DNA from: a virus
DNA: 28,151 nucleotides
Direction: 5' to 3' (one strand)
Virus record (IMG/VR): IMGVR_UViG_3300022845_000014
Location: 1 to 28,151 of that record
This document shows, piece after piece, positions 2,581-17,176 of this stretch. Under the pieces are notes generated by a model that had not been told where the DNA came from, ran no database searches, and was given only the letters and a program-made list of their open reading frames with translations. A program made the position numbers and the translations under genes. Numbering within the stretch: position 1 is the stretch's first letter; every line of letters starts with the position of its first letter.

Positions 2581-5500
2581 TGGTTGATCTTCGCGTAAGG
2601 AAAGGGTATGCCCCTCAGCAAGCAAATCAATTTGTACCTCAGCAAGGCATTGATGGCCGTGCAGGGGACATTCGTGCGCAAGCACTTTCCGGGGTGGGCG
2701 ATCAGGTTGCTCAACTAGGAGCAACGGTTTACGCAAAAAGCGAGGAGCTTAAAGGGAAGAAAAAAGTAAATGATGCGCTTGCTGCGGAAGCGGCGTACTC
2801 TGATTGGACTTATAAAACGTCAGTAGGACTGAACGATGCTTTCCAAACAGCACCGCTTTCTCAGGCTAACCTTTCTGACCAACTCGCAGCGCAGATAGAC
2901 AACAGTGGAAAGGCTTTTCTGGACACAATAGCTGACCCGGATTTGAAACGTCAGTATACCGCTCGATTGACACAGAAACAAAACGAGCTGAAGTATGCGG
3001 TTCTGAACAAGGACGAGGAAAGAATAGGTCGGCAGGCAGGCTCGCTTGTTAACCAGCTTGTGAATACCGGGAAACTTACCTTGTCCAAAGACCCCTCAGA
3101 TGACCAGCTTGCGGCGGCGAAGGAAACTGTTTTCAATAGTATCGCGCAAATCCCGGACTCCGTTCTGGGGATAGAAGTACGTGCGAAACTCCTTGAAGCA
3201 TCTGAAAATGAGCTTAATAAGATCGCTTTCGGCAAGCAGTATGAACAGGAACTTAATCAGCGTAAAGGCTGGGTTGATGATAATATTGATAGTATTGTTG
3301 ATGCTTTTGTGACACCTACCGCTCCTAATGGGGTGCTTGCTTTTGCAACAAAGATTCTTATGGAGAAAGAGGGTTTTAGATCACAACCTTATTATGATGT
3401 AACTAGGCTGAGAGCGGGCTACGGATCAGACACTTACACAACCGCCGATGGGAAAGTTCATCGGGTTACTAAAGATTCTCATGTCACCCGAGCTGATGCA
3501 GATCGAGATATTGCCAGAAGAACTAAGATTTTTTATGACGCGGAAGTTCCTCGGGTAGGTAAAGAAACGTGGGAGTCTCTTCCAGAAACTGCTCGTGGAG
3601 CACTGGTTTCTGTTGCTTATAACTACGGCGCATTGCCTAAAAGTGTCGTAACGGCTGCAAAAACGGGCGATGTTAATAAGATCGCTACAGCTGTTGAGGG
3701 ACTGCAAGGACATAATAAAGGGATTAATCGAAAACGCAGGTTGCACGAAGCAGCTATTATTCGTGCCTCGAAGGGGGCTGTAGCCTCCGATAATATTAGC
3801 TTTTTCGCGGAAAAAAATTGGACCTCGTTTATGCGGGAAAAACACCCGGAGCTTCTTAATGGAGTCAGCCGGGATATTATTGACGGTCTCCGGGAAGACC
3901 CTCGATTTGTCCGGGAAGCCCTCAAGTGGGGCATTCGTAAGAACACTACTCTTCTGCAAAGAGCCGGTGAACAGGTTAGTATGAAAAATATCCAACTGCA
4001 ACAGATGGTTGGTCCGCAGGCTGGTATTCGTTTCCTTCAAGCCCCTCCAGATGATCGGGCAGAAGACTACGCTGACCCGGATCATCTAGCGGCAAACCCC
4101 GAATTTTACGAGGGGAAAACTGTTTCGGATATAACCGGCGAGGCTGAACAAACAGCGCTGGATCAAGGGGCGGACTCCGTTGACGGGGTTGAGGATAAGT
4201 TTACTTTTAGATCACTTGACTACGACACTCGCCAGCAGGAAAAGAAGGATGCGTTGAGCCGGTTCAATGGCGAGCAGACAGAACGGGTTGGCCGGAAGAC
4301 AGCTCAATATGACAAGATGTTGAATGAAACCCTCATGGGTATCCGAGAAGGCCGGTATGGGGCCGGGCATATAGCTGGGCTTGTAGAGAGTGGTCAAATA
4401 ACCTCCTACGCGGATGCTGTTAAACTAGACTCCGCTCTCGACAAGTATCAGGAAGATGCTAAGTTCCTTGCGATGGGGCACTCTTTAATAAATAAAGATA
4501 TTGTTGGTAACCCAAATAACCCCGATCATCGAAAGGCTATAAATAGTGTATTCACTGATTCTGGTGGGGAAGAGGTTATCCAAAATCGCGATGTGGCAGG
4601 AACAGTTGCGATAATCGGGGGTATCTCCAATGGGACTAACGTATTCCCTCAGGAGGCAATGCAAACACTTAACGCTATGGTAAATGGTCGGGGTGTTAAA
4701 GACAACTTGTATGCACTAGAGGTTCTTGCGTCGTTGCGAAATCAGCAGCAAGAGGGGGGTGACTTTTACAAAAACCTTAACACTGAAGCTATCGCCATGT
4801 TGGGGACTTACGATGAACTGAGCCAGAATAACGACCAAGAAACAATAGCTACACTTCTCGGGCTGGGTACAGATACCCGGACCAAGCAAGCGCGGGAAGA
4901 ACTCCGGGAGGTTATCACAGAGCACCTTGATGACGATAAGACCTTTTCGAGAAATGTTTCCGCAATAACTAATCGGTGGTTTGGCTCGGATAAGCTGTCG
5001 GAAACATCTGCGGATTATATTCAGATGAAATCAGAGTGGGAAAATATCTATATAAAGTCTAAGATGCTCGGCCCTTTCATATCGGATGCAGGCGCTGTTG
5101 ATGCAGCTAATGAGGGGATAAAAAAGAACTGGGGTGGGTCAGACCTCGGTGGTTCTGGCGGTCGTGTTATGAAGTTTCCTCCGGAAGAACAGTTCCCCTC
5201 GGTGCCTAAAGATATACTTGAGGCTGCTATCACCGAAGATATAAAAAATATTGATAGAGAAGATGGGGAAGCCTCAGGCCCCTTCGCACTTCGACCCGGT
5301 GAAACATTTATATTGACGCCGAGTGTTAATGCGAATGCTCAGAATAACATGAACCTGCCGATTACTTATACCGTTATGGCTGTCAGGTTGGATGAAAACG
5401 GTGAAGCGGAAGATTATCGGTTTATTACCCAGAACTCCGCTAGTGAACCTATTGCTCTTGACTACTCGAAATTAGAAAAAGAGTATGCTACGATTGCGGG

Positions 5501-5849
5501 GGAAGAGCGGGAGGCTGAATTCGAAGAAAGTTCTTATCTGGACTCATTAACATTAAAGCAAAGGAGCGAGCTTAATAAGGAAAAACGCATCGAAAGAAAA
5601 GCTATCCTTTCTGACCAACTTGAAGAAGCTGATGCCATAAAACGTGCCGGGCAAGCGGCTCAATGGGGCGATGAAAACGATAAGAAGTGGCGCAACGGGC
5701 TTGACCCGGACAGGTTCCCCCTTCCTAATGTTTACCGCAGGGCTCCTCCGAATTCACTTAAAGAACATTATCAATACCTCGATGGTACGTATTACAAAAA
5801 CACCCCTCGTGGGCGGAAAAAAGTTAATAAAGAAGAGGCGATAAAATAA
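2580..5849 (+). CDS. Internal virion protein with embedded T4-type lysozyme (muramidase) domain
   Basis: 1089 aa, start ATG 2580 in a TAATG overlap, GGAGG at 2566-2570. Residues about 255-396 form a lysozyme-like (GH24) domain: KEGFRSQPYYDVTRLRAGYGSDT gives Glu264 and, nine residues on, Asp273, matching the E-x8-D spacing of T4 lysozyme. VAYNYGALPKSV and an RxxLHEAAII end also match this family. The usual Thr of the E-D-T triad is Ala279 here. The flanks are long, charged and helix-rich, as in internal virion proteins. The gp15 position and embedded muramidase suggest local peptidoglycan opening during DNA ejection; T7 uses a transglycosylase in gp16 for this. It is not a free endolysin: no holin or separate lysis cassette adjoins it. 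Confidence 0.88.
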   Translation: MVDLRVRKGYAPQQANQFVPQQGIDGRAGDIRAQALSGVGDQVAQLGATVYAKSEELKGKKKVNDALAAEAAYSDWTYKTSVGLNDAFQTAPLSQANLSDQLAAQIDNSGKAFLDTIADPDLKRQYTARLTQKQNELKYAVLNKDEERIGRQAGSLVNQLVNTGKLTLSKDPSDDQLAAAKETVFNSIAQIPDSVLGIEVRAKLLEASENELNKIAFGKQYEQELNQRKGWVDDNIDSIVDAFVTPTAPNGVLAFATKILMEKEGFRSQPYYDVTRLRAGYGSDTYTTADGKVHRVTKDSHVTRADADRDIARRTKIFYDAEVPRVGKETWESLPETARGALVSVAYNYGALPKSVVTAAKTGDVNKIATAVEGLQGHNKGINRKRRLHEAAIIRASKGAVASDNISFFAEKNWTSFMREKHPELLNGVSRDIIDGLREDPRFVREALKWGIRKNTTLLQRAGEQVSMKNIQLQQMVGPQAGIRFLQAPPDDRAEDYADPDHLAANPEFYEGKTVSDITGEAEQTALDQGADSVDGVEDKFTFRSLDYDTRQQEKKDALSRFNGEQTERVGRKTAQYDKMLNETLMGIREGRYGAGHIAGLVESGQITSYADAVKLDSALDKYQEDAKFLAMGHSLINKDIVGNPNNPDHRKAINSVFTDSGGEEVIQNRDVAGTVAIIGGISNGTNVFPQEAMQTLNAMVNGRGVKDNLYALEVLASLRNQQQEGGDFYKNLNTEAIAMLGTYDELSQNNDQETIATLLGLGTDTRTKQAREELREVITEHLDDDKTFSRNVSAITNRWFGSDKLSETSADYIQMKSEWENIYIKSKMLGPFISDAGAVDAANEGIKKNWGGSDLGGSGGRVMKFPPEEQFPSVPKDILEAAITEDIKNIDREDGEASGPFALRPGETFILTPSVNANAQNNMNLPITYTVMAVRLDENGEAEDYRFITQNSASEPIALDYSKLEKEYATIAGEEREAEFEESSYLDSLTLKQRSELNKEKRIERKAILSDQLEEADAIKRAGQAAQWGDENDKKWRNGLDPDRFPLPNVYRRAPPNSLKEHYQYLDGTYYKNTPRGRKKVNKEEAIK

Positions 5850-8800
5850 TGGCTGTTGTAAGTAATGATTTTCTTCCAGGTACTGGCGCCGCTAAACAGT
5901 ATACCCCTGAGACGCCTGGCCCTTCTGTTTTCGCCACAGCCGGGGCGGCGAGCCGAATAGGCATTGACGTAGTTAATGCTTTCGGGATTCTTACCCGGAA
6001 AGAGTTTCAAAAAGACCAAGATTTTATTGATAATAGATTTGAGGTAATAAAGCAAAAATACCCCAAGCTCGTTCAGAACCCAAATTACCATTCTCTTGCC
6101 CGGACCAATTCATTTGAAGAGTTAGAGTATGTGAAGGCACGAATTGATAAACAGGTTCAAGATAGGGAAACCCTTCACGAAGCTGGGTCACTTGGTGTAG
6201 TGCTTGAGATAGGCGCAGGGTTAATTAGTCCGACGAATTATATTCCTCTTATCGGGATTGGCGCTAGGGGCTTTAAGGCGGCAGGGCAGGGCGCTGCGTA
6301 TGTCGGCCTCGCTACTGCACTTCAAGAGGCTGTGCTTCAAGGAAACCAAGAGACTCGGACATTCGGGGAAAGTATAACCGGGATTGGTGCTGGTATGGTT
6401 TTGGGTGCATTGCTCGGACCCGCAGCGGGTAGGTTTGCGGGGAGGCGTCTGGAAAAAGTTGAAGCGCTTGTTAAAGCTGATTTGGAAGATTTTGCCGTAG
6501 ACATGGGCGTGGACGTTTCTACCCCGAAAACTGTGCCTGACAAGGACGGGACTCCGGAGGGCGGTGGGACGGTCACAGAACCTCCAGCAGGTCTGGGGAC
6601 AGGACAGGCTGGCTCAGCTGGTGCTGCTGTCACCGAGGTTGCCCCACAAGGTACAAAGGGGATATTCGGCTCGAATAAAAAGTTCGGGATCGGCAAGGTT
6701 AGTTTTGAAAGCCTGGGGCCAGTAAGTCGGCAGGCTAATAGTGTTATAAGCTACGCTCGCTGGGTGATGGGAAATATAGCTGATGGCGGGTTGTTGATTA
6801 AGTCAGGATCGGAAGGGCGTGTTGTCGCCCAAGGTGGTACTATTGAAAGTCTCCGGGCCGGGTGGAGCAGGGGTTTGGCGAAGGGGCTGACTGAGTTGGA
6901 TGGAATATACGGTCGGTATGTTTTTGACGGGAAACCTCCGGCAGTGTTCTCCGGGCCAAGAGCTTTTATAGCAGGCGCACGGAACCCACAGAAGTTTTCT
7001 CAGGAGGACTTTAACAAGCAAGTGTCTCGGTATATGCGTGATGGGGAAAAGTGGGAGGGGTCACCTAACCCTGACGCGGACAAGGCGATTAAAGAAGCTG
7101 GTGACCTGCTGCGTAAAGAAGTCTACGAGCCGATGTTTGATCAGATGAAGTTTGTTGGGCTCTTGCCGGAAGATGTGAAGACTGTGGCTGATGTGGAGTA
7201 TCTCAACCGGGTTTATAATCTGGAAGCGATTAGGAACGACACGAATAAGTTTACGGATATCCTCGTAAAGAACTTCCTCAAGAAACGGAAAGAAGCGTTT
7301 TTGAAGGAGTCGGAAAGCCTCCGCTTGAAGGAACTTGACCTTGAGCAGCGGGTCGCCGATAATGAACTTGACGCGGCGACCGCGAAAGAGTCGATTAAGG
7401 TTTTGCGGGAAGAACTGGCTCGGTTGAATGACAGTGACAATCCAGTACAGTCAGTGTTGAATGAAATTACCGACCTGAAGAAACGGATTAAGAACGGGGA
7501 GAAGGAGTCGGAAATTACCGCGAGCTTGCAGAAGGAACTGGACGATCTGAACGCTCTGCATCGTCGTGATGTTCAAGTGTTGCGGGATGAAAAGGGGAAA
7601 ATCCGAACCCGGCTGAATGGGATTAACCAGAATATAAACCTGCTTGAAAGTAAACGGCAAGCTTTTATTCGGAAGTATGAGCGGATGGATGAAATGCAAC
7701 TGGGAAGTCTCATGCGGTTGGAGCGAGCTTGGTCAGTTTTTCAGCGCAACCTTAGTATGAAGAAATGGAACCCGGAGGAAATTGAAAAAGCCTACGAGGA
7801 CATTCTCGAGAAGCTCGGGAAGACAGAAGACCTCATGACGAAGAATGAAGCGAACATGAGGAAGATGGAGGGCGACGATAAGGGGGAAACTGCGAAGTAT
7901 TTCAAGCAAGCGACGATGGTTTATAAGCGGGTGCATCGGATCAAAGCACTCCGGGAACGGTTGGATTTGGTTCAGAAAGCTGGAGACGATGCGGCTATTC
8001 GGAATCAACTTTTGGCCGAGGGTCACGAAAAGCTCCGGGTTGACATTAAAGAACTCAATCAGCGTCGGACTGCCCGGCAGCAAGTGCTTGTGGATAAGAT
8101 TAAAGAGCTTGACCCTAAGCTGGTTCAGGATAACCTGGCCCAAGCGGAAGTGGCGATGAAGGAGAAGAAGGACGCCTTGATTGAGCGATGGCACAAGCTC
8201 GGGTTTGAGGATATTGACTTCGGGGATTTACAACGGACTGCGTTTGAGAAGGTGAATGTTAAGAGACTTCAGGAATATATTAAAGAAATTGGGTCAACTG
8301 ATACATACAACACAAGCGTTATTCAGGTTGTGCCCGCGAAAAATAAAGACTTAGTCAGGAATGATCCTAATAGAGTAATGGGTGATGTAAGTAGCTCTGA
8401 GGGCTTCCATGACGAGTTGCAGAAATTTGACACGGCGGATGATTACCTCAAGTGGGCTATGGTAAACAGTACCATACCGGGGTTTAAGGAACTTGCTAGG
8501 AGGTTTATTGGGAACACAGTTAAGGCCCCGCTTCTCCATTTGAAGGCAGGTGATGTAAGCCTCGCAGGTTGGAATTTCCAAAGTGCGGATGCTTGGGCGA
8601 CACCGTTCTATAAAGAAACTGCCACATCAACTGGTGTTAAGGCAACTTATCTGGGTGCTAGTATTAGTGTTTTAGAAGACGGAGTTACTGAACGTACATT
8701 AATGCACGAGGTTATCCATGTAACTACTCTTAAAAGAACTCTCAGTAAAGATTTAGGCGGTGGTGACGGCTGGAAGAAGATGGCACAACTCAAATCAGAT

Positions 8801-10990
8801 ATCCATAATGAGTTGCCGAACCTTGATAAAGATATGACAACATGGGTAGATTCTCAAGCAGGTATGACGAAGGAACAAAAAGAGGCTTTCAAGCACAACT
8901 TTAGCTATTTTTGGAACGCCGGAAAGGACGCCACTTCCCCTGTAGCACATTTTGAACTTGAGACTCTTACGGTTGCTTTGACCGATCAATTCGTTCAAGA
9001 GTTTCTTAAATCGATTAAGCTGCCTAAAACAAATCAGACCCTTTGGAGTAAGTTTGTCGGGGCACTCGCAGAGGCGTTCGGGATTAAAGCCGGGGATGAG
9101 TACACCGCGTTTAGCCGTGTGCTTGAAATCACTGACGAACTTTCCGAAAGCGCACTGTCCGTCAAGGCAATCGAGGACATGGACTTCTTCAATCCGAAGC
9201 TGGCCTCGGCGGTAGATGTTGGCGCAAGGGAAATTGCGGAGAAGATGACGCAGAAGATACTCGGGGCTAAGGCCGGGCGCTTGTCTAACTGGGACTTGTT
9301 GGATCAGGAACAACGGGGCTCGGAATTGGAACGGGTACTTGATATTCCCTCGAATGACTTTTCCGATGCAGGGTTTTTGGAAGATAATATAGAGAAACTC
9401 ATGCGGGCATATGTGCGGACGATTGCTCCGGATATTGAAATCATGAGGAAGTTTGGCACGATCGATATGCAGAAGCTGCTTGGTGGTATTCACGAAGAAG
9501 CGGCTGTGTTGCTCCGGGCAGCTAGAGGGGTTGGTGAGAAAAAGCAAGTCATTAAGGAATTGGAAGAGGCGCTAGCGGGTGAGGTTGATCAGGGTAAAAA
9601 GGGCATCCTCAAGAACCAATTACTTTCGGTTAAGAAAGGTCTCACGACTAAGGAAATTAATGCGGCGGTGACGGAGGCGATTGACGATTTTACGGGTGTG
9701 ATTGGCCGGTTGCGGCATACACATGGAGTGCCGGATAATCCAACGGGTTGGGCTGCTAGGGGTGCAAGGATAGCTATGAACGTTAACACGTTGCGCTTGA
9801 TGGGCATGGTGGCTATCTCATCTATCCCCGATCTAGCGCGGCTTGTGATGTACATGGGGCCGATGCGGGCGTATAAAAGTGGCCTAAAGCCTTTGGTTTC
9901 AAACTTTAGCACGTTGAAGGTTTCCCTCCGGGAAGCACAACTTGCGGGGACAGCGCTCGATGTTGTGCTTCATACTCGGATGTATGAGATTATGAACATG
10001 ATGGACGATGCGATACCTGTGACAAAGTTTGAACGAGGGCTGGAGACTATGACCAGCAAGATCGGGATTGTGAGCGGGTTTGATTATTGGAACACCGCGA
10101 TGAAGACTCTCGCGTCACAACTGTTTAACGCGGAAACGCTCGATGCGATCCAGAGCGTTGTGGAGGCTAGTCATAAAGGGGCGAAGCCTTTGAAGAAAGC
10201 TCAGGAACATTTGGCTCGGTTGAACATTGACGGGCAAACGAGTATTGATATCTGGCGCCTCGTGGAGAATGGTGGCGGGTCGAAAGTTGGCGATGTTTGG
10301 TTGCCGAATACTGACGATTGGGTTAAGATCGGGGATGGGCTTGGTATGAATAGACGCCGGGTGGAGAGCGCGGTTAGAATTTACCGGCAGGCTCTCGTGC
10401 ACGATGTTGATATGATCGTGGTTACCCCAGGGCTGGAACGTCCGTTGTGGATGGACGGCTCGATTGCCGGGAAGTTAATCGGGCAGTTTAGATCGTTCAC
10501 ATTTAGCTCGACGTATAAGACTACGATGGCCGGGTTGCAGCAGAACGATTCTCGGTTCGCGCTAGGGTCGGCGGTTAGTCTCGGGTTGGGTGCGCTTAGT
10601 TATAAACTCTGGGGAGTCATGTCAGGGTACGATACGAGTGAGGATGATTGGGAGAAGTGGGCGGATGAGATGATTGATCGTAGCGGGTTGATCGGGGCGT
10701 TTAGTGAGGTTAGGCGGCTCGGGCAGACTGTCCCGTGGTTGAATGATTATGTTATGGTTAGCGGGCAGCAGTCTACTCGGTACGGTGGAATGGGCGGGGT
10801 TAGCTCTACGTTCGGTCCATCGGTTGATCTGGCTCAGACTTTCTTCGCGGCGCTAAACGGGATGAGCGATCCGACAGAGGGTACGGCCCGGATGATGCGG
10901 AAGCTCATGCCTTACCAGAATGTTTGGTGGGGGAGGCGGTTGTTCGATGAACTAATCGAAGGGTTGGATTTGCCGAAAGATCGGCGGTGA
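5849..10990 (+). CDS. Giant internal virion / DNA ejection protein with HExxH motif
   Basis: 1713 aa, the largest gene, in the gp16 position. The start ATG 5849 overlaps the previous stop (TAATG), with AGAGG upstream. The N-terminal region has a hydrophobic Gly-rich stretch (about 110-200). Residues about 475-760 are highly charged and heptad-like, probably coiled coil. HEVIH occurs at 953-957, followed by a HFELETLTVAL segment (His1034, Glu1036, Glu1038) that could supply a third zinc ligand. The C-terminus (about 1540-1600: LIGQFRSFTFSSTYKTTMAG and a hydrophobic helix) resembles the ends of large polyvalent phage proteins (LPD38-like, tentative). It is inferred to be a core protein injected with the DNA; protease activity is speculative. 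Confidence 0.85.
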   Translation: MAVVSNDFLPGTGAAKQYTPETPGPSVFATAGAASRIGIDVVNAFGILTRKEFQKDQDFIDNRFEVIKQKYPKLVQNPNYHSLARTNSFEELEYVKARIDKQVQDRETLHEAGSLGVVLEIGAGLISPTNYIPLIGIGARGFKAAGQGAAYVGLATALQEAVLQGNQETRTFGESITGIGAGMVLGALLGPAAGRFAGRRLEKVEALVKADLEDFAVDMGVDVSTPKTVPDKDGTPEGGGTVTEPPAGLGTGQAGSAGAAVTEVAPQGTKGIFGSNKKFGIGKVSFESLGPVSRQANSVISYARWVMGNIADGGLLIKSGSEGRVVAQGGTIESLRAGWSRGLAKGLTELDGIYGRYVFDGKPPAVFSGPRAFIAGARNPQKFSQEDFNKQVSRYMRDGEKWEGSPNPDADKAIKEAGDLLRKEVYEPMFDQMKFVGLLPEDVKTVADVEYLNRVYNLEAIRNDTNKFTDILVKNFLKKRKEAFLKESESLRLKELDLEQRVADNELDAATAKESIKVLREELARLNDSDNPVQSVLNEITDLKKRIKNGEKESEITASLQKELDDLNALHRRDVQVLRDEKGKIRTRLNGINQNINLLESKRQAFIRKYERMDEMQLGSLMRLERAWSVFQRNLSMKKWNPEEIEKAYEDILEKLGKTEDLMTKNEANMRKMEGDDKGETAKYFKQATMVYKRVHRIKALRERLDLVQKAGDDAAIRNQLLAEGHEKLRVDIKELNQRRTARQQVLVDKIKELDPKLVQDNLAQAEVAMKEKKDALIERWHKLGFEDIDFGDLQRTAFEKVNVKRLQEYIKEIGSTDTYNTSVIQVVPAKNKDLVRNDPNRVMGDVSSSEGFHDELQKFDTADDYLKWAMVNSTIPGFKELARRFIGNTVKAPLLHLKAGDVSLAGWNFQSADAWATPFYKETATSTGVKATYLGASISVLEDGVTERTLMHEVIHVTTLKRTLSKDLGGGDGWKKMAQLKSDIHNELPNLDKDMTTWVDSQAGMTKEQKEAFKHNFSYFWNAGKDATSPVAHFELETLTVALTDQFVQEFLKSIKLPKTNQTLWSKFVGALAEAFGIKAGDEYTAFSRVLEITDELSESALSVKAIEDMDFFNPKLASAVDVGAREIAEKMTQKILGAKAGRLSNWDLLDQEQRGSELERVLDIPSNDFSDAGFLEDNIEKLMRAYVRTIAPDIEIMRKFGTIDMQKLLGGIHEEAAVLLRAARGVGEKKQVIKELEEALAGEVDQGKKGILKNQLLSVKKGLTTKEINAAVTEAIDDFTGVIGRLRHTHGVPDNPTGWAARGARIAMNVNTLRLMGMVAISSIPDLARLVMYMGPMRAYKSGLKPLVSNFSTLKVSLREAQLAGTALDVVLHTRMYEIMNMMDDAIPVTKFERGLETMTSKIGIVSGFDYWNTAMKTLASQLFNAETLDAIQSVVEASHKGAKPLKKAQEHLARLNIDGQTSIDIWRLVENGGGSKVGDVWLPNTDDWVKIGDGLGMNRRRVESAVRIYRQALVHDVDMIVVTPGLERPLWMDGSIAGKLIGQFRSFTFSSTYKTTMAGLQQNDSRFALGSAVSLGLGALSYKLWGVMSGYDTSEDDWEKWADEMIDRSGLIGAFSEVRRLGQTVPWLNDYVMVSGQQSTRYGGMGGVSSTFGPSVDLAQTFFAALNGMSDPTEGTARMMRKLMPYQNVWWGRRLFDELIEGLDLPKDRR

Positions 10991-11034
10991 GTTGGGTATG
11001 GTCTAGTCCTTACGGTTCATAACCGTACCCAACT
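10990..11034. terminator. Bidirectional terminator-like hairpin between convergent blocks
   Basis: The arms 10990-11002 (AGTTGGGTATGGT) and 11022-11034 (ACCGTACCCAACT) pair over 13 bp with one G-T wobble around a 19-nt loop. The plus-strand stop TGA ends on the first base of the left arm, and the minus-strand gene's stop (11003-11005) lies in the loop. The two convergent transcripts therefore both end here. There is no clear U-run on either side, so it may act as a 3'-end stabiliser rather than a canonical intrinsic terminator. Confidence 0.6.
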
Positions 11035-12286
11035 GATCCCCGAATGTAGCGGACAATGCCTCGTAGAATGTCCCGGAATCGTGATGCTTTTTGCGTAGCG
11101 CTTCCGGGACTTTTTTATTTGCAACGGGTACGATTTTCCCTGACTCGATAAGAACGGAAAAGAGTTGCTTGGCATGGAAGACCGTTGTGATGGCGAGAAG
11201 GGATCGGGTTATTCGGGACTCGTGGAAGTAGGGATCGTTCTGGAGCTTGCCTTGGTACATAGCGTGGAGTAAGCGCTCGGCTTTATCTAGGTCGTTGCCT
11301 TGCTTGTTGCCGAGGAAGACGTCAGGCATTCTTGCTTCCGCGTCCATGAGTAGGTCGTAAGCCCTGACGAAGTGGTCCTCGGTTAGAAGCATGTCACCGC
11401 CCTCGTCTATGCAGTATAGTATCATGAGCTTTTCAATCTGCATGTGGCGACGTTCGCAGTAGGTTATGAAGTTGGGGTGATTAGGGACTGGTGGGCCACC
11501 TTTATTTCCGGGGTAGCGGTAGAAGTCGTTGAGGAGTTGGCGGGCTTCCGGAGTGAATGCGAGCTGGCCGGATAGCTTAGAGATTTCCTTAACGTCATGC
11601 GCTATGTCGGCTTCGAGTTTGATTAGTTCCTTAGAGCTTCGGTCTTCCGCGAATAGATCGACACGGGGGATGGAGTCGCCCATGACAATTATGACTCGTG
11701 ACATGAAGCCGGAACCCCATGCGACCTCTGGGATGAACTCGTGCAGGTCATCCGGGGTGCTACCGACAAGCATTGAGGTATAGGTCCGTTCCGCGTAGAA
11801 TGTGTGAGTGGCTTCCCGGCGACCTTCGGAGTATTCGTCACAGTCCCAAAGGTCGGTCAGCTTGGAGATCATGTCAATGTCATAGGCGTTGAATAGGACT
11901 CGGACTTCCGGGGAGAACACGTGGAGGCCGTGGAAGATTTCAGATTCCTCAGTGATGGGGTTTTTGAATTTGCGCTCGTTGGCTTGCAGGGACTGTGCTA
12001 GGAAAGCGGCGGTCATGGAGGATGCGGATAGGCGACCGGGGCCGAGTTTGTTAATGATCTTCCGGGCAGCAGTTAGAGCCATGCCTTTGCCGCAACCGGA
12101 TTTACCGATGAGCATTATGTAGAGGTTAGGGTAGACCGGGGCTCCCTTGGTCATAACCCACAGCTTGCGCTCTATCGCAGCGCTAAGGACCCAAAGCCCG
12201 CACCACTCCCGATAGTGTTCGGAGGTTTCACGGGCAGCGAGTAGGTCTTTGTAGGCTTCAATTATAGAAATCAGCTTGCGCGCCAT
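11003..12286 (-). CDS. DUF3987-like ATPase, putative replicative helicase/primase-helicase
   Basis: 427 aa. A P-loop is visible at residues 61-68 (GKSGCGKG); the residue after the Lys is Gly rather than Ser/Thr. The preceding text (REWCGLWVLSAAIERKLWV...YPNLYIMLIGKSG) and the following STPDDLHEFIPEVAWGSGFMSRVIIV resemble DUF3987-type phage ATPases, often placed beside replication genes. The start overlaps the polymerase 3' end by 29 nt and has no strong Shine-Dalgarno, so translation may be coupled. It is the last gene of the minus-strand block. Its partner is probably the split polymerase; it is the best candidate here for DNA unwinding at the fork. No zinc or TOPRIM primase motif was seen, so a primase role is not supported. 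Confidence 0.72.
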   Translation of the reverse strand: MARKLISIIEAYKDLLAARETSEHYREWCGLWVLSAAIERKLWVMTKGAPVYPNLYIMLIGKSGCGKGMALTAARKIINKLGPGRLSASSMTAAFLAQSLQANERKFKNPITEESEIFHGLHVFSPEVRVLFNAYDIDMISKLTDLWDCDEYSEGRREATHTFYAERTYTSMLVGSTPDDLHEFIPEVAWGSGFMSRVIIVMGDSIPRVDLFAEDRSSKELIKLEADIAHDVKEISKLSGQLAFTPEARQLLNDFYRYPGNKGGPPVPNHPNFITYCERRHMQIEKLMILYCIDEGGDMLLTEDHFVRAYDLLMDAEARMPDVFLGNKQGNDLDKAERLLHAMYQGKLQNDPYFHESRITRSLLAITTVFHAKQLFSVLIESGKIVPVANKKVPEALRKKHHDSGTFYEALSATFGDQLGTVMNRKD

Positions 12287-13865
12287 ATGAGCCCAGTTTC
12301 TCTTGAAGGGTTTGTGGCCGGGAGCGTTTTATACATCCCGGTGTTTTGCGGAGGTCTGAGTGTGGTCCACGCCATGCGGACAGTCCGAACTCATTAGTAA
12401 CCTCTTTAGTCTCTTTGTCTTCTTTTCGATTTGCCCAGTTCCAACCAATCTTTGCCTCAAGGGGGACGGTGAATGGCCGGCCTCCGACAAGGGTGTGGTT
12501 GATGGTGAGAAGTTCAAGGGCCTTGGGGACAATGAGGTGTTCAAGTTTTTCCGGGTACTGGAAGAGGATGGAGTCGTGGACTTGGATAAGTAAGTGGATA
12601 GATTTAAGGTTTCTCCAGAGGTTAAGGATGCCTTCGTCAATAGCATCGGCAGTCATGGATTGTGGGCCAAACGCGATTGCCTCGCGATGGGTTCGCGGAT
12701 CGTCAGGGAGTCCGAAGAAATAGCGGCGGCGGTTGTAGAGGTCGGACGTTACTTCGCCGTGTTGCAGGAGTCCGATGACGTGCTTGTGCCATGCGGGGAT
12801 ACAGGGGTAAGCGCGGAAGTATTTGGCCTGAAAGTCCTCGATGACTTTTATATCAACCTTGGTGTGCCCGGCCATAGTGCGGGGGGTGCCGAGGTAGTTC
12901 GTGCCGTGGCCTAGCTTTTTTGACATGTCCCGATAGGACAGGTCTCGGTAGACGATACGGTCAGCAACAGCTCGCCAGAGATTGGGGTCTTCCGGCCAAG
13001 GTTCTTCCGTCCAAGCCATCCGGCAAACTTGAGTGTGAAGGTCGCCGGACTCACAGGCGTCAAGGTATGCTCCGGCAAATTCCGGACCGTGTGAGTCGTG
13101 GAAAAGGTTCCAGCAGGTTGCGCCGAGGTTGCGGGAGTCGGCTTGCTCAAGATCGACATTGCAGAATTTCATACCTGGGTCTGGGATAAAGACTTCGCGG
13201 AGGGCGCTTTCGATATTCTGGTTGTTGGTGCCGGTCTCGAAGTTGGACTCGGAGGAAGATAGTCGGCCAGTCTTTGTTCCGGCAACGCTGTAGTTGGTGC
13301 GCATCCGGTTGTCTTTGTCTAGCTTGGTTGATAGGAATTGTATTTTCTTATCAAGGTCTCGGATAGCTAGGATGTACCGGCAGATCGGGGAAGCCACGAA
13401 ATAGTTCTGGAGTTTTTCAAGGGCTTCCCGGTTAGTTGTTGGGCCGTAGCTCCCGTTTGGTTTGCGAGCTTTTATCGGTACGATGTTGAAGACGGTGTAG
13501 AATAGTTTGGCGAGCTGGACAGGGCTCCGGTAATTGAACGGGGCGAAGCCGATACCTTCCTCAACTATTAGTTTAAGGTTAGTAGCGAGTTTGTCCCGGA
13601 TTTTAGAAAAGTTAGCGAGGGTTTTCCGGCGTGCATCCGTGTTGATCCGGGTTCCGCGTAAAGACATCTCGAAGGTTGGGGCCATTAGCGAGTGACTGAA
13701 CGCGGAAGTGTTGGCGGCGATCTCATCCATTTCCGCCGCTTGCTTGAGTCCTATTTCTAGAGTAAGGCAAACGTCAAGGGCGTTGTATACCCATTCAGTC
13801 TCATCAATCGTCAACTGGTTTAAGGTAGTCTCGGTAAGGTCCGCGTTCTGAATTATCTTTACCAT
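12258..13865 (-). CDS. polA: Family A DNA polymerase, polymerase half of a split enzyme
   Basis: 535 aa. It begins just before the Exo III motif (YNALD, residues 27-31). It then has TGRLSS (199-204), motif A DLEQADSR (238-245), motif B/O-helix R312-x3-K316-x3-His320-x3-Tyr324, and motif C QVHDS (428-432). All polymerase catalytic carboxylates are present (Asp238, Asp431). Exo I and Exo II are absent; they lie in the protein encoded at 14492-15496. The residue aligned with E. coli Phe762 is His320. About 55 residues extend beyond the usual C-terminus (PLEAKIGWNW). An in-frame TGA lies four codons upstream of ATG 13865, which fixes the earliest possible start. That start overlaps the preceding gene by 62 nt without a convincing Shine-Dalgarno. 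Confidence 0.92.
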   Translation of the reverse strand: MVKIIQNADLTETTLNQLTIDETEWVYNALDVCLTLEIGLKQAAEMDEIAANTSAFSHSLMAPTFEMSLRGTRINTDARRKTLANFSKIRDKLATNLKLIVEEGIGFAPFNYRSPVQLAKLFYTVFNIVPIKARKPNGSYGPTTNREALEKLQNYFVASPICRYILAIRDLDKKIQFLSTKLDKDNRMRTNYSVAGTKTGRLSSSESNFETGTNNQNIESALREVFIPDPGMKFCNVDLEQADSRNLGATCWNLFHDSHGPEFAGAYLDACESGDLHTQVCRMAWTEEPWPEDPNLWRAVADRIVYRDLSYRDMSKKLGHGTNYLGTPRTMAGHTKVDIKVIEDFQAKYFRAYPCIPAWHKHVIGLLQHGEVTSDLYNRRRYFFGLPDDPRTHREAIAFGPQSMTADAIDEGILNLWRNLKSIHLLIQVHDSILFQYPEKLEHLIVPKALELLTINHTLVGGRPFTVPLEAKIGWNWANRKEDKETKEVTNEFGLSAWRGPHSDLRKTPGCIKRSRPQTLQEKLGSYGAQADFYN

Positions 13866-14295
13866 GGGAGTTCATCTTCTTTATGATGCTGGGGGTATGA
13901 ACGAGCTTTGGATTAGCAAAGTCATTAAAGCAGGTTATTACGTAGACCGGGATGGAGAGGGATAGGGCATGTTTAAGTTCGACAAAGACTCCGTTGGACG
14001 CTTGCCAATTGTCACGTTGGAGAAGGTGGAGCCGGGTGCAGCGGGATAGGGTGGATAGGCACTGGGTTTCCCAGAAGTCTATGTCATGGGGGAGGTTGAA
14101 ACGTTTGCTTACCTCATGCCAGTGGACGATCGGGGAAAAGACGGGGATGTTTTTGAGCGCGTAGTAAGCGACTGCCCCGCAAGCGTACTCGTATCGGTCC
14201 TGTCGCACCTTAGGATCGACGTGGGTGTAGGCTTGGGCGAGGTAGATTAGATCGTGGTAGATTAGATCGTGCTTGACGTTTGGATGGGTTAACAT
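13804..14295 (-). CDS. DUF1937 / nucleoside 2-deoxyribosyltransferase-like protein
   Basis: 163 aa. The core reads DLIYLAQAYTHVDPKVRQDRYEYAC...FSPIVHWHEVSKRFNLP.DIDFWE...LHLLQRDNW..S.GVFVELKHALSLSIPVYV. This is the signature of DUF1937 proteins, which share the fold of nucleoside 2-deoxyribosyltransferases (a YLA-PY start, FSPI-H, and a GV--E-- helix near the end). Such enzymes swap or remove bases on deoxynucleosides; activity of this family is largely unproven. GGAGGAG lies 7 nt before ATG 14295. The gene sits between the two halves of the polymerase. A perfect 15-bp tandem duplication (14241-14270) repeats HDLIY at the N-terminus, so the domain proper begins at the second copy. Confidence 0.78.
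   Translation of the reverse strand: MLTHPNVKHDLIYHDLIYLAQAYTHVDPKVRQDRYEYACGAVAYYALKNIPVFSPIVHWHEVSKRFNLPHDIDFWETQCLSTLSRCTRLHLLQRDNWQASNGVFVELKHALSLSIPVYVITCFNDFANPKLVHTPSIIKKMNSHGKDNSERGPYRDYLKPVDD
14241..14270. repeat. Perfect 15-bp tandem duplication
   Basis: GGTAGATTAGATCGT occurs twice head to tail (14241-14255 and 14256-14270), encoding the repeated HDLIY at the start of the DUF1937 protein. It keeps frame. Confidence 0.95.
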
Positions 14296-14489
14296 GAGTA
14301 GTCTCCTCCCCGATGGTGGCGGTTGTACGTGTCGAGGGTGACCTCGGAAAGTTGCCTGATAAAGTCTTGGGCGTCGTTGATGTTGAAGGTTAGCTCAGTG
14401 GCCGGGCGGGAGAGTTGGATGACGACAAGACCGTCTCGCTCAGTTAGGTTTACTTCGAGGGGTTGGATGTGTTGGGGTAGGATAAGCAT
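14289..14489 (-). CDS. Hypothetical 66-aa protein inside the split polymerase locus
   Basis: I do not recognise the family. ATG 14489 has AGGA (in AAAAAGGACTCC) 8-9 nt upstream, and that Shine-Dalgarno lies in the last codons of the UDG-exonuclease gene. The stop overlaps the next gene by 7 nt. The sequence alternates hydrophobic and polar residues (VNLTERDGLVVIQLSRPATELTFNIND), suggesting beta strands, followed by an amphipathic helix (AQDFIRQLSEVTLDTYNRHH). No cysteine pair or catalytic motif is visible. Its location between the exonuclease and polymerase halves makes an accessory role plausible, but that is only inference. Confidence 0.72.
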   Translation of the reverse strand: MLILPQHIQPLEVNLTERDGLVVIQLSRPATELTFNINDAQDFIRQLSEVTLDTYNRHHRGGDYSC

Positions 14490-14491
14490 AG

Positions 14492-15496
14492 TTAGGAGTC
14501 CTTTTTAATTGTCCTACTTTTCAGCATGAATTTCCAGCTAGGCTCGTTGGTGTATAGCGACGCAAGGAAGCCAAGGCCCTTTTCCATCTCGGGTTGCATG
14601 GCGTGATGGGTAAGCATGGTATCGTGGCCGAAGTTGGGCGAGGTTATTCCGTACTTAGTCCAGAGATAGTCGAGGTCGTATACAAAGTTTTGCCCGAAGA
14701 CTGTGTTGGGAAGTGCGAGCCATTTGCGGACGTATGCAAGGGCAGCAAGCTCGGTGTTAAGGCTGGGCCAGTAGGAGTTTTGTTTGGCGCGATCGTTGAT
14801 TATGAAGGGGATGACGATAGCGCGATCGGGAGTGGGCGCGAAACCAATGCAGGTCATCTGGAGGTTTTTGGTTTCAATGTCTACGCTTAGTTCATTGGAG
14901 GCAAGGATGTACGGCTCGAAGTCAGCGAGGTCGGAAAGGGTTGGTTCGATCCAAAGCTCCCGGCGGGGTCGGCGGACTTCCGGGAAGATCATTTCGCGCT
15001 TGAGTTTCTTTATGTCGGAGAAGACTATCGGGCGAAGTTTGTAGTCCCGGAATACTGCGCCGGGGTTGTAGGATGGCAGGACTTTGTGACCGGTTACGCC
15101 AATGACAGGCGCTCCCCGGACAGATTTTATCTTAGCATTTTTAAGTATCGCCCATGTGGCGAGGCCGCCTAGGGCAAGGATGACGTTCGGGTTGACCTCG
15201 CGAATTGTAGTGTATAGGTCTTTGAGGTAGGGGGCGTATTCCTTGGAGATGTAGTTGGTTTTGATTGCGGCAGGATAGCCGGGGACGGCATTGGGTTTGG
15301 TGGAGCAGAGGGAAAGTATTTTCCCGCCATCCGGTTGGAAGGGGAAGACTGATGTGAAGTAACAGTCTCGGGAGTCTATGCCGACAGCGGAAAGCTGGGA
15401 ACGTAGGAAGCCACCAGCGGGACCGGAGAATGATTGCCCGGTCTGCCGCTCGTGGTTGCCCCATGCCTCACCGAGGATTAGGATAGGCTTGGTCAT
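14492..15496 (-). CDS. Uracil-DNA-glycosylase-like domain fused to truncated 3'-5' exonuclease domain (polymerase N-terminal half)
   Basis: 334 aa from ATG 15496, chosen because it forms an ATGA overlap with the upstream stop; a start at 15559 would overlap by 67 nt. Residues 1-165 resemble family 4 uracil-DNA glycosylase: GEAWGNHERQTGQSFSGPAG (9-28) and KVLPSYNPGAVFRD (138-151). The usual His of the second motif (HPA) is Asn144. The N-terminal CxxC of Fe-S family 4 enzymes is absent; only Cys45 and Cys64 occur here. Residues about 180-325 are a DnaQ-type domain with Exo I Asp206/Glu208 (VDIET) and Exo II Asn270/Asp274 (FGQNFVYD). The protein ends before Exo III, which is supplied by the polymerase at 12258-13865. 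It could act in uracil sensing plus proofreading. Confidence 0.85.
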   Translation of the reverse strand: MTKPILILGEAWGNHERQTGQSFSGPAGGFLRSQLSAVGIDSRDCYFTSVFPFQPDGGKILSLCSTKPNAVPGYPAAIKTNYISKEYAPYLKDLYTTIREVNPNVILALGGLATWAILKNAKIKSVRGAPVIGVTGHKVLPSYNPGAVFRDYKLRPIVFSDIKKLKREMIFPEVRRPRRELWIEPTLSDLADFEPYILASNELSVDIETKNLQMTCIGFAPTPDRAIVIPFIINDRAKQNSYWPSLNTELAALAYVRKWLALPNTVFGQNFVYDLDYLWTKYGITSPNFGHDTMLTHHAMQPEMEKGLGFLASLYTNEPSWKFMLKSRTIKKDS

Positions 15497-15813
15497 GCGG
15501 AAGGGCTTTTCGGAAAAGGAACAGGGCCGGCTGTAGGGTAAGCCGTGCCCAGACCACAAAGCGAGTCATGGACTAGCAAGGCATAGCCTGCAATGTCTTT
15601 CCAATGGTCAGGCTCGTCCGGGTTGCCGGAAAGGATGCGAGCCATCTTTGAGCAGATCATGTCAAGGGACTCGGCTTGGATGGGCATGATCTTACTACTA
15701 CTTTTGTTGCGAACAATTCTTTTGAGCCCTTGGGCTATTATGGAAGTGTCGCTGTAAGGGCCATGAGTGGTTTCACGCTCGATGATAGTTTGTTCAGCTT
15801 CATTCATTTTCAT
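15493..15813 (-). CDS. DUF6378 phage protein
   Basis: 106 aa. The pattern ERETTHGPYSDTSIIAQGLKRI...IQAESLDMICSKMARILSGNPDEPDHWKDIAGYALLV matches a small phage family (DUF6378) common in replication regions; the helical ExxD-like layout recalls MazG-type nucleotide hydrolases, but this is not established. ATG 15813 lies 12 nt inside the end of the methyltransferase gene, with GGAAAGAG immediately upstream. Its stop overlaps the next start as ATGA. The context among DNA synthesis genes fits a nucleotide-related role, inferred only. Confidence 0.8.
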   Translation of the reverse strand: MKMNEAEQTIIERETTHGPYSDTSIIAQGLKRIVRNKSSSKIMPIQAESLDMICSKMARILSGNPDEPDHWKDIAGYALLVHDSLCGLGTAYPTAGPVPFPKSPSA

Positions 15814-17176
15814 ACTCTTTCCAATTTGTCATTGCGTCTTGGGCGAAGATGGGATCACGCTCAAGACCGAGGCAACGGTTAGCCCGGAGTTTGTCAGCGG
15901 CGATGAGGGCGTTGGCACTGCCGCAGGTCGGGTCGAGGATAGATGTGTTCTCATCCACAAGCATCTCGAAGAAGTGGGTGAGGACGGGGAGAGGTTTCTG
16001 GCTCATGTGGATAGTTTTTTCTTGCGGGGCTCCGATAAGGTTGGACTTGGCCCGGACAATCGGGCGGTCATCGCGGGATAGGAGCAGGGCGGTTTCGTAT
16101 ACTTGGCGCGGACCTCGCTTGGGGTCGGGAAGGATGCCGGAGTTGTCGGACCGCCACCAGATTAGGGGTTTGGAGAGGACAGTCCAACCGAAGTCTTGGA
16201 AGAGGTCGATGGTTTGCGCGTAGTAGTCCATGGAAAACCAGAATAGAATGTGGGCGGACTCGGATATGATTGTGTGTTGGTTGAGGAGAAGGGTATCGAT
16301 TAGGGAAAAGTAAACGTCCTCGGTGTCGGCGTAGCCCCCGAATTTATCCGAGGCTCCACGGTTGTGTTTGTCCGCGTTGATGCCGTAGGGGAAGTCGCAG
16401 TGGATGAAGTTGAAAGGGTCTCCGGTGTAGTCGGTTGCCCACTCGCGGAAGTCGGTGTTGAGGATGGGGGAGGATGGGTCTGGGAGACTGTCAATAACGT
16501 CCTGTTGCCAAGGTTGGAGTATAGGGTTGTTATCTTTTATAGCTTCCCCGAAAGCATTTTGTCCAGCGGCAAGGCGTGCTTTGATCTGGTCAGCGGAGAG
16601 GGTGACGGGGATTGGTCCGCCCTTGGGGGAAGGTTTAGGCTTAGGCTTGGTGAGGCGGGCAAGTTGTTCAGACTCAGCGGCACGCTTCCGGGCATCGGAG
16701 CGTTCGAGTAGGTTACGGGCGACGGAGATTCTTTCCGCGTTGGCGATGGCGGTGTTGCCCTCATCGATGGCAGTGGCAAGGCGAACGCAGGATGTTACGT
16801 ACTTGGAGGTGAAGTTAAGTTTACGGGCGGCGTCATCAAGGGAGGGGGAAAGAGCGTAGAACCGGGAGACTGCTTGCACTTGATCCTGCCATGAGAGGTC
16901 TTTGCGCTGGATGTTCTCGTCCAGCTCTATCTTTTCCAGATCGTCCTCTGTCATGTCTTCGATGTAGGTGACGGGGATATCGGACCAGTTTAGAATATCT
17001 CGGCAAGCGGTAAGTCGGCGTTCGCCTGCAATAAGGATGTTCTCGCGGGTGATGGCGATGGGGTTGATAAGGCCGATAGAGTTTATTGACGCGGCAAGAT
17101 CGGTGAGGTCACCTAGGTCTCGGCGCTGCCGGGTGTCCCGGTTTATGGTGATGGAGGCGATTGATTTTGTGGACAT
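15800..17176 (-). CDS. ParB-domain / DNA methyltransferase fusion
   Basis: 458 aa. The N-terminal region (about 1-135) is a ParB/Sulfiredoxin-type domain: INPIAITRENILIAGERRLTAC with GERR at 51-54, followed by a helix-turn-helix-like stretch. After a Lys/Pro linker (about 176-190) comes an amino-methyltransferase of beta order. Motif IV is DFPYG (261-265) instead of DPPY, then HMSQKP (390-395), then the SAM-binding DPTCGSANAL (415-424). The likely reaction is N6-adenine or N4-cytosine methylation. No cognate restriction gene adjoins it, so an orphan, anti-restriction or regulatory role is likely. The start lacks a strong Shine-Dalgarno and follows a terminator-like hairpin. Confidence 0.87.
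   Translation of the reverse strand: MSTKSIASITINRDTRQRRDLGDLTDLAASINSIGLINPIAITRENILIAGERRLTACRDILNWSDIPVTYIEDMTEDDLEKIELDENIQRKDLSWQDQVQAVSRFYALSPSLDDAARKLNFTSKYVTSCVRLATAIDEGNTAIANAERISVARNLLERSDARKRAAESEQLARLTKPKPKPSPKGGPIPVTLSADQIKARLAAGQNAFGEAIKDNNPILQPWQQDVIDSLPDPSSPILNTDFREWATDYTGDPFNFIHCDFPYGINADKHNRGASDKFGGYADTEDVYFSLIDTLLLNQHTIISESAHILFWFSMDYYAQTIDLFQDFGWTVLSKPLIWWRSDNSGILPDPKRGPRQVYETALLLSRDDRPIVRAKSNLIGAPQEKTIHMSQKPLPVLTHFFEMLVDENTSILDPTCGSANALIAADKLRANRCLGLERDPIFAQDAMTNWKEYENE

Follow-up and report, generated by a model that had tools for sequence, protein, structure and literature searches.

Proofreading in family A DNA polymerases of phages depends on an exonuclease site built from three motifs, Exo I, Exo II and Exo III. 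The locus described here raises the question of whether such a site can be cut in its middle, between Exo II and Exo III, and still belong to a working enzyme, and of how it came to be cut. In the window, as we call the whole stretch of 28,151 nucleotides analysed, a single UDG-exonuclease-polymerase fusion gene has been parted, in the loop from Exo II to Exo III, into two genes with starts of their own (Table 1).

Organization of the polymerase locus

Translation of both halves places Exo III in the second protein, P0002, only, and confirms the residues and coordinates at which an earlier, sequence-only reading of this DNA had located Exo I (D206/E208) and Exo II (D274) in a different protein, P0001. 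The set of Exo I, II and III is therefore complete only when both proteins are counted together. The P0001 ORF runs from an ATG at 15496 to a TAA at 14492-14494, and its Pfam matches are to UDG (PF03167, 3.5e-15) and to DNA_pol_A_exo1 (PF01612, 2.2e-5, residues 188-317). Its N-terminal domain is a predicted member of the UDG superfamily, as judged from PF03167 and from a profile that also matches type-4 UDG structures. P0002 presents the features of a family A polymerase, namely the PF00476 domain, the catalytic Asp and the conserved Arg/Lys. Both proteins match phrog_17 ('DNA polymerase') at consecutive profile positions, 481-788 and 809-1241, and, when aligned to intact homologues, the two halves together correspond to one intact polymerase. 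The N-terminal extension of P0002 is missing in these intact relatives; its position 7 is Thr in 117 of the 132 second halves, and Asn in the window.

As had been proposed, the spacer consists of a 66-aa gene and a DUF1937 gene, each behind a purine-rich ribosome-binding sequence read by eye (AAAAAGGAC and GGGGAGGAG). An overlap of 62 bp joins the DUF1937 gene to the start of the polymerase gene, and the supposed gap is in fact filled by genes that touch or overlap one another. With entire genes separating the halves, no base correction returns Exo III to the first protein, which excludes a sequencing error as the source of its absence there.

In the same window, positions 15800-17176 (-) encode a fusion of a ParB N-terminal domain with an N6/N4 DNA methylase, and ParB or methylase genes are found directly upstream of the polymerase in several relatives too (L002-L005). 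A 1713-aa ORF is located at 5849-10990 (+), downstream of tail, internal-virion-protein and endolysin-like genes.

Table 1. Features of the split polymerase locus, in window coordinates
Feature	Position	Strand	Evidence
DUF6378 gene, upstream neighbour, overlaps the start of the first half	15493..15813	-	PF19905 3.3e-7
First polymerase protein P0001 (334 aa; UDG-like and exonuclease domain, Exo I and Exo II)	14492..15496	-	translation, Pfam
Exo I, D206-I-E208 in P0001	14873..14881	-	translation
Exo II, N270 to D274 in P0001	14675..14689	-	translation
Disordered C-terminal tail of P0001 (325-334), break side of the inter-motif loop	14495..14524	-	pLDDT <50
66-aa spacer gene P0004, no assigned function	14289..14489	-	translation
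DUF1937 spacer gene P0003 (163 aa, nucleoside 2-deoxyribosyltransferase-like)	13804..14295	-	PF09152 6.1e-6; phrog_355 1.8e-5
Second polymerase protein P0002 (535 aa; Exo III helix and family A polymerase domain)	12258..13865	-	DNA_pol_A PF00476 2.1e-32
N-terminal extension of P0002, ~20 residues, 'M-x-x-I-I-x-T-x-x-L'	13806..13865	-	alignment with intact relatives
Exo III, Y27-N-A-L-D31 in P0002	13773..13787	-	translation
DUF3987 primase/helicase-like gene, downstream neighbour, overlaps the end of the second half	11003..12286	-	PF13148 3.6e-17; phrog_14296 DNA primase 5.2e-29

Distribution of the split among related phages

The window being a metagenomic virus record, an assembly or sequencing artifact that joins two loci might be suspected. 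We regard the chance of this as practically negligible, since two further IMG/VR contigs carry this stretch with 99.99-100% DNA identity over 13.5 kb, and the split is also present in an isolate genome, that of the cultured Caulobacter phage Kuura (OQ067476), where the locus is laid out in the same way with a different pair of small genes between the halves. The recurrence of the break in the other contigs of the same phage and in at least 135 distinct loci places it beyond chance or an assembly slip, and the misassembly that the sequence-only reading had named as the main threat to the split is contradicted by the agreement of the other contigs.

Phages with the same split proved to be numerous. 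Single-protein and alignment scans recovered these 135 or more distinct loci (Kuura included), all cut at one same point, a split locus being counted where both halves were placed and separate; the alignment scans kept the best 80 matches, with several hundred others beyond this cap, and distant members are under-represented. One further locus was all that a scan based on Kuura added. Among the loci of these scans, four alone read through the break point, and all four belong to the 'phages' collection. Three of them have an intact enzyme in a single ORF, whereas Vibrio phage VS-ABTNL-3 (L004) is broken elsewhere, having an independent split inside the polymerase domain (5162-5716) with a phrog_8380 protein of no assigned function between the parts.

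An intact outgroup was obtained by a further scan with an intact enzyme. In the resulting tree, which has 87 rows, a single clade (SH-aLRT 100) takes in 68 of the 69 split rows, and the nearest intact group is that of Microcystis phage Mel-JY34 and ctMlz233. The sole split row outside the clade, L209, is a contig of a Pseudomonadota MAG and groups with an intact phage. Its membership of the clade is rejected by the AU test (p 0.005, with long branches as a caveat), and its split, found in the same loop (7102-7344), may represent a second independent break.

Other interruptions were observed in this set of polymerases. In L230 (ctLwi270) the break lies after Exo III, at 2986-3138, with a CxxC...CxxC (zinc-ribbon-like) reading frame across the gap. 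The polymerase half of L034 (3210-5594) has an in-frame insert of ~285 aa (LGHG/CLTVDHEVLT...KIFVTGN/TNYEG) that is intein-like and absent from its close relative L014.

Conservation and predicted structure of the two halves

Both halves are under strong purifying selection, with a median dN/dS, over 18 pairs, of 0.085 for the first half and 0.075 for the second. The Exo I and Exo II residues D206, E208, N270 and D274 are invariant in 134 of 134 first halves, and so are Y27 and D31 of Exo III in all 132 second halves. The polymerase residues are also kept wherever they are aligned (D238 in 132/132, R312 and K316 in 131/131, D431 in 129/129). The earlier reading had offered an old insertion or a deliberately two-part enzyme, and had argued that the two proteins must associate or the exonuclease is lost. 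Invariant catalytic residues and purifying selection on both sides of the cut favor both options, as an old break followed by retention of a two-part enzyme.

The distance matrices of the exonuclease part and of the polymerase half are correlated with an r of 0.75 (69 loci), compared with 0.44 for the UDG part, although UDG and exonuclease share a chain, and 0.36 for DUF1937 (47 loci), values to be read with the caveat that linked genes tend towards correlated distances anyway, and that the faster evolution of UDG and DUF1937 may add noise to their comparisons. In four first halves (L048, L030, L049 and L052) the N-terminal UDG motif is degenerate while every exonuclease residue is kept, and UDG activity may therefore be lost in these members.

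The read-through product of L048 was modelled with its TAA as Gln, on an alignment with intact relatives. The model, in which the halves are covalently joined and which thus says nothing on the affinity between separate chains, has a mean pLDDT of 82.8 and a pTM of 0.80, and Foldseek matches it to Klenow-type enzymes and to phage G20c polymerase I over ~650-760 columns, covering both domains (8oo6, 1kfs). Its junction, residues 311-319, has a pLDDT below 50 and lies between the helix 295-302 and the Exo III helix 336-361. P0001 modelled alone reaches a mean pLDDT of 89.3, only its C-terminal tail being disordered, and by this prediction the first half looks like a self-folding module without the Exo III helix. 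Since the junction is disordered and P0001 is modelled with confidence on its own, the cut falls in a loop that should tolerate a break.

The spacer between the halves

The length of the spacer ranges, across the split loci, from an 8-bp overlap (-8) to 2793 bp, and its frame varies too; in nine loci essentially no spacer remains, the second half starting right where the first ends or a few bases before. With a spacer that varies from an overlap to 2.8 kb, the spacer genes do not maintain the break. Their identity also changes. DUF1937-like ORFs have a direct match to P0003 in 53 other spacers and form a single-linkage cluster of 74 loci, and other spacers contain DUF7768, nucleoside deoxyribosyltransferase-like, MazG, dNMP kinase, KTSC and ligase-like genes. 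The 66-aa P0004 has a distant homologue in the corresponding spacer of the sister locus L041 (31% identity, pairwise E 4e-6). An RNase H gene (PF00075, 6.7e-7) is present in the spacer of a Kuura-like phage (L211:3154-3675).

Because other members of the clade have other genes or none at this place, the two spacer genes of the window are later, exchangeable tenants. Of the 'old insertion' suggested by the sequence-only reading, the old break thus stands, but the genes now found in it are not what made it. By these comparisons the spacer is a site for tenants and not the cause of the break. As for expression, SD-like sites precede 82 of the 135 polymerase starts, against a control rate of 18%, and the abutting or overlapping halves of the nine members above have an arrangement that would be typical of translational coupling.

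Origin of the break

By analogy with a locus of the intact group, a homing endonuclease probably made the break. A homing endonuclease gene would have entered the Exo II–Exo III loop in an ancestor, the halves would have kept working as separate chains after the insertion, and the endonuclease would later have disappeared or given way to small phage genes of an ordinary kind, DUF1937 among them. The locus in question, L226, has an HNH endonuclease ORF (phrog_3377, 8e-28) at 5052-5480, in the corresponding Exo II/Exo III loop. Its first half ends in WKPDKTTWKVGG and a stop codon, with the endonuclease starting directly after, and its polymerase half restarts at a GTG (5467), behind GGAGG, inside the 3' end of the endonuclease gene. 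No loop insert is present in its intact-type relatives L221, L223, L236, L237 and L238. L226 is a natural example of the step that probably produced the clade, as an analogue distinct from the ancestor of the clade. HNH_3 matches are found in six spacers of the split clade, three of the six above Pfam's curated cut-off; at the break of the window no endonuclease gene was found among the Pfam and phrog matches.

A two-part enzyme and its alternatives

With the same cut present in no fewer than 135 related phages, the window encodes an old and probably working two-part enzyme, not a broken or decaying gene. In our view, an inherited clade-wide split, an obligate heterodimer and an origin by endonuclease insertion, taken jointly, are quite probably the best explanation of the data. 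The most likely form of the enzyme is an obligate heterodimer in which the exonuclease site is completed by the polymerase half. Both halves would be translated from one operon and would assemble into a heterodimer of Klenow shape, the first protein providing the exonuclease sheet that bears Exo I and II, while the polymerase protein would complete the proofreading site through its N-terminal helix, which carries Exo III.

The enzyme would instead be one chain if the halves were rejoined before acting, by a self-splicing intron, a split intein, ribosomal bypassing or stop-codon read-through. Introns do interrupt phage polymerase genes (Bacillus phage SP8, our L233, and LUZ24), and in L048 a single TAA separates the two halves, which share one reading frame (junction GAT TAA ATG). 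However, coding sequence, in two genes, fills nearly all of the window's spacer, the polymerase halves have a conserved start region of their own and are often preceded by SD-like sites, and the spacers differ in length and frame, so we consider rejoining very unlikely. No Rfam match to an intron was obtained in window positions 12000-15800 at E<=5, nor at the L226 insertion under the same permissive search, which detected the SP8 intron at 1.4e-4 as a control; only the permissive result was used, because the gathering thresholds miss even this known intron. No intein-like sequence was seen at either edge of the break. The split might also have destroyed proofreading, in which case the polymerase would work without an exonuclease and the first protein would be a relic or an independent UDG/nuclease; the lack of Exo III in that protein would fit this, as would the degenerate UDG motif of several members (L048 and L030, for example). 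Against this, the exonuclease residues are fully invariant on both sides, including the Exo III Tyr and Asp in the polymerase half, and a dN/dS near 0.08 is unexpected for a dead site, which makes such a loss improbable.

In a regulated two-part layout, the polymerase half would also act alone and the supply of the exonuclease half would tune proofreading, giving high-fidelity and mutator modes. Separate genes with separate starts do permit unequal dosage, and the contents of the spacer change often, but the abutting or overlapping halves in nine members suggest an equal, coupled supply, and we give this possibility little credence. That the polymerase half replicates alone, and that docking of the exonuclease half switches proofreading on to produce an adjustable mutation rate, is a speculative idea that we also hold to be unlikely.

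If the obligate heterodimer is correct, a two-protein proofreading site across a widespread clade would be a natural test of a catalytic site surviving a cut through its middle, and polymerase engineering would gain a proofreading part that is separable by nature. How an endonuclease insertion leads to a stable two-part enzyme can be tested directly, thanks to the insertion in L226 and the HNH genes that recur in the clade. The annotation of the first halves can also be corrected, as these can stand as 'hypothetical protein', which is the case of Kuura_029, the first half of the pair whose polymerase half is Kuura_026.

Comparison with known systems

The split polymerase gp43A/gp43B of T4-type phages, which is not known to have a UDG domain, sets a precedent for function. 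In the T4-related Aeromonas phages 25 and 44RR, gp43A and gp43B co-purify with polymerase activity, and, as in the window, one replicative polymerase is made of two proteins, with a homing endonuclease or other insert between their genes (PMC2988022). The window enzyme belongs to family A, whereas gp43 belongs to family B and its split was described for two phages (PMC2988022). Essential genes split by a free-standing homing endonuclease, with parts that reassemble, are also known in Aeh1 nrdA (mobE), which is fully active when split, and in T4 gene 60/39 (mobA) (PMC2988022); these are different enzymes, and in the clade of the window the endonuclease is usually gone.

Split polymerases were also described in LUZ24 and phiEco32 (PMC3517423, PMC3890496). 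These LUZ24-type (Bruynoghevirus) and phiEco32 podophages also have a family A exonuclease and polymerase in separate genes with others between. All three motifs, Exo I, II and III, were read by eye in the translations of both LUZ24 part I and the phiEco32 exonuclease, which means that their exonuclease domain is whole and the cut is at the domain boundary, whereas in the window Exo III is in the polymerase protein. The annotation of the LUZ24 locus (L240, 6000-8306) gives the polymerase three parts and places an endonuclease between II and III. In MEP401/MEP402 (Zobellviridae) two ORFs encode the family A polymerase and flank a small ORF of no assigned function (PMC10580990), but in MEP401 the cut is inside the polymerase domain, and the first ORF, ORF13, has Exo I, II and III (translation, by eye). 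Because LUZ24, phiEco32 and MEP401 keep all Exo motifs together, a cut between Exo II and Exo III is distinct from these cases. The break had been called unusual, which is true against these three phages; within its own clade, which is large and consists mostly of uncultivated phages, it is nevertheless the rule.

Caulobacter phage Kuura (Kuura_029/Kuura_026) has the same split point and belongs to the same clade, with different spacer genes; a term search of the Kuura paper found no mention of the split (PMC9959647), and no published report of the Exo II/Exo III split of this clade was found in the open-access literature searched. The intact UDG-exo-pol enzymes of Mel-JY34 and ctMlz233 have the same domain order, at ~30% identity, but they are encoded by one ORF and have no N-terminal 'IIxT' extension before Exo III. 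Bipartite polymerases are already known, and what appears to be new, from the sequences compared here, is the position of the cut and its distribution across a whole clade.
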